The translations under genes and the position numbers were made by a program. A DNA stretch of 57,223 nt, from positions 1 to 57,223 of the forward strand of contig JALHOC010000011.1 in assembly GCA_022843225.1 (NCBI GenBank), read 5' to 3'. The DNA comes from Hyphomonadaceae bacterium. GTDB lineage: Bacteria > Pseudomonadota > Alphaproteobacteria > Caulobacterales > Aquidulcibacteraceae. Of the stretch, positions 43,096 through 45,193 are shown piece after piece; position 1 is the first letter of the stretch, and every line of letters begins with the position of its first letter. Under the pieces are notes generated by a model that saw only the letters and a program-made list of their open reading frames with translations, made no database searches and was not told the origin of the DNA.

Positions 43096-43722
43096 CTACC
43101 CGCTCCCGCGCAGAGTCGACGCATCAAAGATCGTGATTTCGGAGCCCAGATTGATCGCGGCCACGCGATCTTCCGCGCCGCGCACGATTGTAAACACACG
43201 TTGGCCGTTTTCAGACGGCCCCCACACGCCGCAGGGCATATAGTCGGCCTCTGTCGCCTCGGTCGCGCTTCCGGCAGAAGCGATCAACGCGTCATAGGCG
43301 GCGCGCGCTTCACCTGTCGGCATGAACCGATAGTGACCAACCAAGTCAGCCATTTCCTCGAATTCGCAGGTCGCAGTCGCCGCGCCGGGCGAGGCCGCAC
43401 GCACGGCCGGGAGCACGGCGTTCAAGGGCTCCGTTTCGGCCTTCGTGAACAACACAATCACCGGTGCGCGCATCACGCCTTCGGGCGACTCCACCTCCCG
43501 GACGAAGCCCGGCAAGGCAGGATCGGCGACGAGACGATCGCGCGGGCAGGCAAAGCTCCACACCGAAACACCGGCGGATTGGACTTCACCCCAAACGCAC
43601 TCTGAAAAGGTCTCAGCGCGCGAAGCGTCTGGCGTAGGGTCTACGGCTGTTGGCGATTGCGGCGGAGCGCAAGCGGTCAAAGCCAACACGATGAGCGCCA
43701 AAGCGCCGAAATTCTGCGTCAT
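43096..43722 (-). CDS. Lipoprotein, unknown function
   Basis: The 208-residue protein has a lipobox LTAC (MTQNFGALALIVLALTACAPP, Cys18), a Pro/Asp-rich linker and a mature domain with cysteines in FSECVWGEV, WSFACPRD, ATCEFEEM and MPCGVWG. GAGGGG upstream fits ATG 43722 better than the earlier in-frame start at 43743. No family was recognised. Function unknown. Confidence 0.68.
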   Translation of the reverse strand: MTQNFGALALIVLALTACAPPQSPTAVDPTPDASRAETFSECVWGEVQSAGVSVWSFACPRDRLVADPALPGFVREVESPEGVMRAPVIVLFTKAETEPLNAVLPAVRAASPGAATATCEFEEMADLVGHYRFMPTGEARAAYDALIASAGSATEATEADYMPCGVWGPSENGQRVFTIVRGAEDRVAAINLGSEITIFDASTLRGSG

Positions 43723-43830
43723 GCGTAGCCCCTCGCGCATCAAAGATAGCTAGACCATATCGCGGACCCGCAGGGCTTGGAAGTGTCGGCCATTGGACAT
43801 TCAAGCTGAGACGCCGCTGTCCTGAATCAA

Positions 43831-43859
43831 AAAGGGCGCCGGTGGAACCGACGCCCTTC
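43831..43859 (-). terminator. Rho-independent terminator, minus strand
   Basis: A stem of AAGGGCG/CGCCCTT extended by CGGT/ACCG with one mismatch (43831-43859) is followed on the minus strand by TTTTTG. It lies directly after the two tandem peptide genes (43903-44118) and ends their transcript. Confidence 0.72.
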
Positions 43860-43902
43860 AGGCATTGTGCACTGTCATGAAAAACCTTCGAAGGTTGCGC
43901 CC

Positions 43903-43995
43903 TTAGGCGACGATGAGCGCGGCTTGGTTGAGCGTGGCCATCGCGACGGGGGCGAAAGCGATGCAAGCGGCGATCAGGCTGTAGAATTTGGTCAT
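43903..43995 (-). CDS. 30-residue exported-type peptide, tandem copy A
   Basis: The peptide reads MTKFYSLIAACIAFAPVAMA then TLNQAALIVA. Residues 1-20 are a short signal-like segment with an AxA site (Ala18-Met-Ala20), leaving a predicted 10-residue mature part. A strong GAGGAG ribosome-binding site lies about 8 bases before the ATG. It is 24/30 identical to copy B (44026-44118), which lies 30 bases upstream on the same strand. Terminator at 43831-43859 follows. An intact alternative is a single-TM micropeptide. Confidence 0.72.
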   Translation of the reverse strand: MTKFYSLIAACIAFAPVAMATLNQAALIVA

Positions 43996-44025
43996 TGGTC
44001 TAGCTCCTCTTCGTGGTTGGGCGGG

Positions 44026-44118
44026 TTACGCGACGATCTGGGCGGCTTGGTTCAAGGTGGCGAACGCGGCGGGGGCGAACACGGCCAGGGCGGCGATCAG
44101 GGAATAAAACTTGGTCAT
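44026..44118 (-). CDS. 30-residue exported-type peptide, tandem copy B
   Basis: The peptide reads MTKFYSLIAALAVFAPAAFA then TLNQAAQIVA. It has the same length as copy A and a ribosome-binding GGAG about 6 bases before the ATG. The predicted mature tail differs from copy A at one of ten positions (Gln instead of Leu at position 7), whereas the signal part has five differences. The pair is first in its transcription unit and divergent from the alpha/beta hydrolase gene at 44243. Confidence 0.72.
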   Translation of the reverse strand: MTKFYSLIAALAVFAPAAFATLNQAAQIVA

Positions 44119-44242
44119 TTGCGGCTCCGTTTGCTCTGTCTCGAACCATCCATCGATCCGATGAGTTGAACCTACCGGCGCCCCGACCGGGCCGCTGTGA
44201 CCGGGGGCACACCCGTGCCAAGATGCGGTCGGAGAGCGCACA

Positions 44243-45193
44243 ATGCGGCTTTGGATCTGGCTTGCGGGCTTCCTTCTCGTCCTGATCGGCGCTTGCGCTT
44301 TGATCGCCCTCCTCGCCGCGCACGATGTGGAGGCACGCCTCGCAACACTGCGCGCCGAGCAACAGATCGCGCAAACGCGCCACGGGCCGATCGCATACGC
44401 AAGCTGGGGCGAAGGCGAGCCAGTGCTCGTCATTCACGGCGCTGGCGGCGGCCATGACCAAGGGCGTCTTTTCGCGGAGGAGTTTGGCGGCGCGAACCAT
44501 CGTTGGGTATCGATCTCACGCTTCGGCTATCTCGGCACGCCGATGTCGGCGGACGCCTCCACGCCCGCGCAAGCGGACGCGATCGCTGACCTGCTCGATA
44601 CACTGGGTATCGAGCGCGCCTCGATCTTAGCCGTCTCGGGCGGCGTGCCGCCGGCTTTGCAACTCGCCGCGCTCCACCCTGACCGCGTCTCGCGTATGGC
44701 GCTCATCTCCTCTGCGCCGTTCACACCGTTCACGCCCCCGACTGAAGCGCGCCCCATTCCCGATTGGGTCTATCAGGCGCTGTTCGGCAATGACGCCGTC
44801 TACTGGCTCTTGGCGAAGATCAACCGGCGCGGGCTGGAAGCTGCCTTCGACGCACGCCCCGAGCTTCGCGAAGGGCTCTCCGCTGAAGAAGAACGCTTCC
44901 TTGAGCACTTGGTGGATGCGTTCTTGCCGGCCTCCGCGCGCATAGACGGCGTACGCAACGAAGGCGCGGCCATCAACCCCAACACATCATACGCCCTTGA
45001 AAGCATCACGACGCCAGCACTGATCATCCACGCCCGCGACGATCATCTGAACCAGTTCGCGATTGCCGAAGCGTTGGCTGCGCGGCTTCCACATGCTCAG
45101 TTCGCGCCGCTCCCCAGCGGCGGCCATTTGCTGCTCGGTCAGCACGAGAACGTGAAGACGCGCGTGGAGGCTTTCCTGCGCGATGAACCCTGA
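44243..45193 (+). CDS. Alpha/beta hydrolase
   Basis: The 316-residue protein begins with one TM or signal-anchor helix (WIWLAGFLLVLIGACALIALLAA). The hydrolase core follows: GPIAYASWGEGEPVLVIHGAGGGHDQG (oxyanion loop), ERASILAVSGGVPPALQLAALHPDRV (nucleophile Ser), ITTPALIIHARDDHLNQFAIAE (Asp) and FAPLPSGGHLLLGQHENVK (His). The nucleophile motif reads A-V-S-G-G rather than G-x-S-x-G. Substrate unknown. ATG 44243 has a weak GGAG-like site. Confidence 0.85.
   Translation: MRLWIWLAGFLLVLIGACALIALLAAHDVEARLATLRAEQQIAQTRHGPIAYASWGEGEPVLVIHGAGGGHDQGRLFAEEFGGANHRWVSISRFGYLGTPMSADASTPAQADAIADLLDTLGIERASILAVSGGVPPALQLAALHPDRVSRMALISSAPFTPFTPPTEARPIPDWVYQALFGNDAVYWLLAKINRRGLEAAFDARPELREGLSAEEERFLEHLVDAFLPASARIDGVRNEGAAINPNTSYALESITTPALIIHARDDHLNQFAIAEALAARLPHAQFAPLPSGGHLLLGQHENVKTRVEAFLRDEP

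Follow-up and report, generated by a model that had tools for sequence, protein, structure and literature searches.

The two adjacent 30-codon genes at positions 43903 to 44118 of the window (the whole stretch of 57,223 nucleotides analysed here, from a Hyphomonadaceae bacterium) belong to a peptide family that is larger than was first noted. Our data establish this family, the selection acting on its coding sequence, the geometry of its core and its promoter motifs. To explain them, we tentatively favour, with somewhat less than even confidence, the view that these are export peptides regulated by envelope stress and probably cleaved after Ala 20 to leave a 10-residue tail. The window pair would then be a single unit within a family of translated mini-peptides of export type that occurs in many copies. 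In order of transcription, its elements are:

44196 to 44210, minus strand: class-1 CRP-like box GTGCCCCCGGTCACA, a sequence match under the looser pattern
44169 to 44174, minus strand: predicted -10 element TAGGTT, placed at the distance from the box that is fixed in the family
44141 to 44161, minus strand: leader hairpin TCGGATC/GGTTCGA, 7 pairs including G-T pairs, identified by eye
44125 to 44128, minus strand: Shine-Dalgarno-like GGAG of the first open reading frame (ORF), read from sequence
44026 to 44118, minus strand: first peptide ORF, coding for 30 residues, with its stop codon
44004 to 44010, minus strand: Shine-Dalgarno-like AGAGGAG of the second ORF, read from sequence
43903 to 43995, minus strand: second peptide ORF, coding for 30 residues, with its stop codon, starting 30 nt past the first stop
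43832 to 43858, minus strand: terminator-like hairpin followed by T's, identified by eye

The peptide pair is not expected by chance. Among same-strand ATG ORFs of equal length (25-35 residues), the window contains exactly one pair with at least 60% identity, and 20 mononucleotide shuffles of the window contained zero, with a best identity of 19%. The initial annotation described tandem 30-residue ORFs; they lie on the minus strand, and their coordinates and sequences are as it gave them; 24 of the 30 residues are identical, and five of the six differences (positions 11, 12, 13, 17, 19 and 27) fall within the first 20 residues. It also correctly assigned each ORF its own ribosome-binding site, a Shine-Dalgarno-like stretch before each ATG. 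Its proposal of one terminator common to both genes holds in part: a hairpin with T's, itself preceded by a short palindrome, can be seen downstream of the pair, but a consensus terminator scan of the region listed no terminator, and the shared terminator therefore rests on reading by eye. The minimum-energy fold of the window leader differs from the hairpin read by eye at 44141 to 44161, and the orthologous leaders of this unit carry CGGATC...GATCCG. Divergence between the two window copies amounts to a pS of 0.44 and a pN of 0.19.

Homologous frames with conserved tails, on whose existence the original claim depended, were found in many copies. With one window copy as the query, 11 places in its own genome were matched at E <= 10, itself included, while the family profile (E <= 0.01) gives 12 copies arranged as four tandem pairs (the window pair and those on contigs C58, C100 and C3) and four singles, of which C20 carries three and C8 one; 36 tandem pairs were counted among family members. 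An order-wide search with a 50-row profile produced matches in 42 of 299 genomes. Within the genus of the window genome, 29 of 30 genomes match, with 2-24 copies each (median 12), and the sole genome without a match is 57% complete. Seven genomes in four other genera of the host's taxonomic family also match, and across that taxonomic family peptides were matched in 36 of 60 genomes, spread over 5 of 14 genera. Elsewhere in the order, six genomes gave matches at noise level only (E above 0.002), and a class-wide search of 385 genomes returned, besides the window's own, three with weak matches (E 0.0013 or more); we take these weak matches outside the taxonomic family as noise. When a collection described as 84,980 species was scanned with a codon pattern, 75 stretches were returned, in records named Hyphomonadaceae, Caulobacterales, Caulobacteraceae, Alphaproteobacteria, Terricaulis sp. 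and one Rhodospirillaceae, the last of which (L063) fits the DNA pattern yet is no family member. From these names, the peptide-bearing group looks like the Terricaulis/Vitreimonas clade, which two papers assign to Aquidulcibacteraceae (PMC12700997, PMC13109427). The copies are unevenly placed in one genome: the 24 family matches of G023 (contig C1) all fall into the 2.15-4.15 Mb part of a 4.18 Mb chromosome, a skew that is absent from G020 and G071.

Searches of Pfam, NCBIfam, PHROGs and PADLOC with both window peptides gave 0 matches at E 10, as did a search of PDB sequences with the family profile. A literature search, with most subscription papers and all bioRxiv preprints outside its scope, returned no description of the family, and the exact tail string was absent from the papers searched.

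The peptide loci are embedded in stable surroundings. The neighbours of the window locus are kept in all five genomes compared, with the window alone having a pair and the other four one copy each, and a cluster of family peptides linked to a PBP1C gene is likewise kept in 5 of 5. A tblastn search of one window peptide against phages and plasmids found nothing. On these three grounds, a mobile repeat was rejected as the main cause of the copy number. The genes adjoining the peptide loci vary in kind and strand, and because of this we ruled out an attenuator leader. An RNA gene was also considered, and the sub-threshold Rfam matches to sroD (E 0.094) and suhB (E 0.37) were taken as chance. Near the C3 peptide pair (about 0.9 kb away, with one DsbA-like gene in between) lies a gene for a trypsin-like protease with PDZ domains (L015, 2499-3920); the related loci L194, L207 and L213 showed no such neighbour.

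Members share the core K/R-x12-P-x-A-x-A-x3-QAA-x-I-V-A-stop, which is nearly free of insertions and deletions. The larger member set (E below 0.02, ATG or GTG start, with CTG-start and no-start rows left out) holds 159 rows, with 156 distinct DNA sequences and 139 peptides. Since the codon pattern includes the tail and the stop, the loci found with it (L044-L118) contain both by design and are biased towards the exact tail; the 71 profile-found members at loci of five genomes (12, 12, 14, 23 and 10 members) are therefore the cleaner set. The profile matches listed for those genomes number 73, and one start in the set (L012, 67 residues) is miscalled.

In the five-genome set, the length is exactly 30 residues in 56 of 71 members. 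Column 16 comes 13 residues after the last N-terminal K/R in 68 of 69, and this core stays unchanged in members extended at the N-terminus by as many as 16 residues. The stretch from Gln 24 to the C-terminus is 7 residues long in 65 of 71 members, 6 in three and 8 in one; two lack a matching Gln. That the first 20 residues resemble a signal segment ending in AxA, as the initial annotation proposed, is borne out: A or G at -3 with A or S at -1 occurs in 67 of the 69 scorable members (A/A 58, A/S 8, G/S 1, A/T 1, A/V 1). Of 138 peptides in the larger set, 122 pass this signal-peptidase-like rule and 16 fail, and an N-terminal K/R is found in 137. Acidic residues occur in 3 of the 71 members, in one of these solely via the miscalled start. 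Mean hydropathy of residues 4-15 is 2.46 across 113 distinct 30-mers, every one of which contains a 19-residue window hydrophobic enough to span a membrane. Conserved columns (16, 18, 20, 22 and 24) alternate with variable ones (17, 19, 21 and 23) in the larger, biased set, a pattern that would be expected for an extended stretch lying in a protease cleft.

The peptide family is clearly under purifying selection at the protein level. Among 128 members of exactly 30 residues, pN/pS was 0.315 (101 nearest-neighbour pairs), and the entropies of codon positions 1, 2 and 3 were 0.78, 0.53 and 1.16, the third being the most variable. The synonymous bias between copies on which the initial annotation had also staked its claim is thus present (pN/pS 0.32). 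As a separate observation, the codon for Gln 24 (window 44049-44047 and 43926-43924) is CAA in 143 of 153 members, against a baseline before Ala of 59 percent CAA to 41 percent CAG (311 neighbouring genes; P about 8e-22); the codon for Gln 27 lacks this bias.

Single units and the first genes of tandem units share a class-1 layout: GTGnC-N4-GTCAC, 22 nt, a TA[GC][GC]TT-type -10 element, usually a hairpin, a Shine-Dalgarno stretch and ATG. The strict box, GTGAC-N4-GTCAC, occurs at 17 sites in four genomes compared to one for the reversed pattern. A family peptide lies downstream of 16 of these 17, and the remaining box (L158) precedes an unrelated exported protein. The window box, with GTGCC, is one base off the strict pattern (C for A at position 4), a substitution shared by 16 of 53 aligned boxes. 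CRP-type class-II promoters have their box at a fixed distance from the -10 element. Similarly, in 53 of the 57 distinct leaders without a class-2 box, a GTGA-N6-TCAC-type box stands at a fixed distance from the -10, as in CRP-dependent class-II promoters. In most cases the leader hairpin is near the predicted 5' end; among the 53 leaders with TA..T at -10, which were used for the analysis of stems, 39 have a stem of at least 6 bp, compared to a mean of 4.45 and a maximum of 10 in shuffles, and 14 different stem arms are represented. Unlike usual CRP regulons, the strict class-1 box in these four genomes serves almost only one peptide family, and we know of no other regulon of this kind.

A CRP-like regulator that is co-distributed with the peptides is, judging from sequence comparisons, the likely activator of class-1 units. 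The CRP helix-turn-helix family matches six places in the window's own genome, two of them full length; one of the four partial matches was inspected by eye and is not CRP-like. One full-length match is closest to FixK (NCBIfam, below the model's cut-off) and has the helix TIETVSR, and the other is a protein of 240 residues with a cyclic-nucleotide-binding domain and the helix SREKVNR. The latter helix resembles that of E. coli CRP, whose half-site contains GTGA. In the host's taxonomic family, strong matches to this regulator (E 1.2e-50 or better) occur in 33 of 36 peptide-bearing versus 2 of 24 peptide-less genomes, and there are two further weak matches (Fisher P 3.8e-11, with genomes counted as independent and kinship ignored). 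By genus, all 5 peptide-bearing genera have the regulator, and 1 of 9 others has a strong match. Its recognition helix is identical at 29 of 30 loci and was not found in L286, where the match ends early.

At 8 of the 30 regulator loci, an extra family-like peptide lies within about 1.5 kb of the regulator, and three of these eight have altered tails (L262, L265 and L269). In two more genomes a family peptide lies about 2.4 kb from the regulator, and the G020 peptide gene begins about 240 bp past the regulator gene; the window's own genome showed no family peptide next to the regulator. Upstream of the start codon in L219 and L049 there is a third promoter type, the palindrome TGACAA-N6-TTGTCA with GTCACTTAGACAAAGG, and the members there are longer, at 35-36 residues (L219 4858-4944, on own contig C8; L049 4359-4466).

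A second peptide group is probably driven by an ECF sigma factor with an envelope regulon, as its promoter sequences suggest. This group consists mostly of clustered singles, close to the PBP1C gene in 5 of 5 genomes and to an EF-hand protein in 4 of 5. It carries the class-2 motif GCATCC-N16-GCATC, and in 50 of 50 cases the spacer is exactly 16. GCATCC-N16-GCATCTC occurs at 35 sites in eight genomes versus 0 in the reversed control. Family peptides lie downstream of at least 15 of the 35 sites; at least 16 have no peptide downstream, some of which appear intragenic and due to chance, and in several genomes others stand upstream of DUF2807 proteins and of a small exported protein. The window's own genome has 8 sites of GCATCC-N16-GCATCW: three upstream of peptides, one before a protein with DUF6249, one before a protein with DUF2807, one before the small exported protein, one before a protein that by eye is outer-membrane-efflux-like, and one inside a long ORF. 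These co-targets point to the envelope. Thirteen promoters of the larger set contain both class-1 and class-2 motifs. One class-2 box, at L119 (G052:C18, 61206-61234), has the palindrome GTGACC-CT-GGTCAC in its spacer; the 37-codon ORF downstream of it, with the tail MAAGMVA, is possibly a distant relative.

In 4 of 4 related genomes (L252-L255), a class-2 box with 0 mismatches precedes a DUF6249 gene and then an ECF-like gene. The latter was recognised by tblastn, at 37-40% identity to a neighbouring ECF factor that itself matches Pfam sigma-70 regions 2 and 4; the DUF6249 matches fall below the Pfam cut-off. Within the literature searched, DUF6249 turned up in one paper, whose title points to an unrelated subject. 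A small membrane protein follows the ECF-like gene in the two to four genomes where it was seen. These loci contain two adjacent operons, each with a DUF6249-like gene, an ECF sigma factor and, where readable, a small membrane protein. The second operon carries the class-2 box; the first, upstream operon (L253-L255) has GCATCC and lacks the second element at N16. In autoregulated ECF operons, the operon and its targets have one promoter type in common, and the class-2 promoter, common to an ECF operon and other genes, is similar in this respect. The envelope link raised in the initial annotation gains from this promoter, which is common to peptides, ECF-sigma operons and periplasmic proteins. 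ECF -35 elements usually contain AAC, which is absent from GCATCC, and an OmpR-type regulator gene lies near the class-2 cluster in the window's own genome. GCATCC-N16-GCATC could instead be a direct repeat bound by a response regulator; we prefer the ECF reading because the box precedes the DUF6249-ECF operons.

In the explanation we favour, a precursor of about 30 residues would carry one positive residue followed by a hydrophobic segment of 12 residues, then a signal-peptidase-like site of the form P-x-A-x-A, and would end at the stop codon with the tail x-x-x-QAA-[Q/L]-I-V-A. Dispersed single and tandem units, including that of the window, would probably be activated by the CRP-like protein via a class-II-type promoter, and the second group probably switched on by the ECF sigma factor with its envelope regulon. 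These two regulators, as well as the targeting of the peptides to the membrane, are predictions with good support. The peptide would enter or cross the inner membrane and most likely be cut after A20 by signal peptidase I. We infer this cut from the residues around it, and further suggest that the conserved free C-terminus of the resulting 10-residue peptide may be its working part, as an envelope signal or modulator.

On cleavage, the sequence evidence and the AlphaFold2 model point opposite ways. The model is one continuous helix, residues 2-29 (mean pLDDT 93.7, pTM 0.45), and we count this against cleavage, together with the membrane-span windows in 113 of 113 30-mers. Export signals usually need a less rigid K-to-P distance than that seen in this family. 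An uncleaved single-span peptide, in which the 30-mer stays in the inner membrane with its N-terminus inside and works as a helix, is the main alternative, somewhat less likely than cleavage. Such a helix could be a binding partner, a pore or a regulator, with the small residues, P16 and Q24 serving helix packing. The confidently predicted helix and the strongly hydrophobic windows would fit it, as would the fixed core (13 residues from K/R to column 16 in 68 of 69), yet neither signal-peptidase-like -3/-1 residues in 67 of 69 members nor conservation of every second residue across columns 16-24 is expected of a plain helix. AlphaFold models many short hydrophobic peptides as helices, export signals among them. 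The initial annotation left the peptides as secreted or membrane-inserted, and both fit, the modelled helix leaning towards the latter and the -3/-1 residues towards the former.

We consider it improbable that the tails are a secreted bulk product acting in quantity, whether antimicrobial or self-assembling (amyloid-like), with copy number serving yield. Up to 24 copies per genome, the 36 tandem pairs and the export-type anatomy would suit such a product, but the tail has no net charge, and no immunity or transport gene family recurs at most loci (within 3.5 kb on either side in five genomes, where few neighbours are annotated).

Two known systems offer the closest comparisons, and by analogy the family may work most like enterococcal-type precursors or membrane mini-proteins such as type I toxins. 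The enterococcal pheromone-inhibitor peptides iCF10, iAD1 and relatives are described as short hydrophobic precursors whose last residues are active and which are released near or in the membrane (PMC7117660). The family likewise comprises short hydrophobic precursors with a conserved C-terminus, the 7 residues from Gln 24 to the end being kept in 65 of 71 members. Unlike these Gram-positive, plasmid-borne inhibitors, it is chromosomal, has many paralogues and a signal-peptidase-I-like site, and is under two predicted regulators. The type I toxins Ldr/Fst and Ibs have about 20-35 residues, are hydrophobic and predicted to be helical, and occur in several copies per genome (PMC8309996), and the family is like them in size, hydrophobicity, predicted helix and copy number.

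That the peptides are hydrophobic toxins of this type, restrained by antisense RNAs, is nonetheless highly unlikely in our estimate. They are small, hydrophobic, tandem and present in many copies, like Ldr and Ibs as that source portrays them (PMC8309996), but differ in having dedicated CRP-like/ECF-like promoters with short leaders and a conserved free C-terminus, and they lack the conserved C-terminal positive residues of Ldr/Fst. Moreover, no antisense RNA was found: the window locus has no Rfam family above the gathering score, and a scan covering the sigma-70 type alone listed no such promoter on either strand of 43700-44300. Finally, an RNA product (a regulatory RNA or leader) with the ORF secondary might account for the 5' hairpin in 39 of 53 class-1 leaders (4.45 in shuffles) and the excess of CAA at codon 24 (143 of 153, versus 59% before Ala elsewhere), but we give it very little credence against a pN/pS of 0.32, a conserved frame and length, and adjoining genes that differ in kind and strand.

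Returning to the export peptides, a further step, which we think unlikely as matters stand, would be an envelope peptide-signalling system in which the CRP-like activator and the ECF sigma factor each drive paralogous precursors and a receptor reads the tail QAA[QL]IVA. If so, the receptor could be, for example, a PDZ protease controlling an anti-sigma factor, and copy number would set the gain of a stress response or report stress to neighbouring cells.

Altogether, this study reveals that one Caulobacterales clade spends a median of 12 (2-24) mini-genes per genome on one peptide design, which has a core that tolerates almost no change in length and which no library searched names. Evidently, targets of just 30 codons can keep a large regulon out of sight, and the clear promoter code makes the function of these peptides testable at once.
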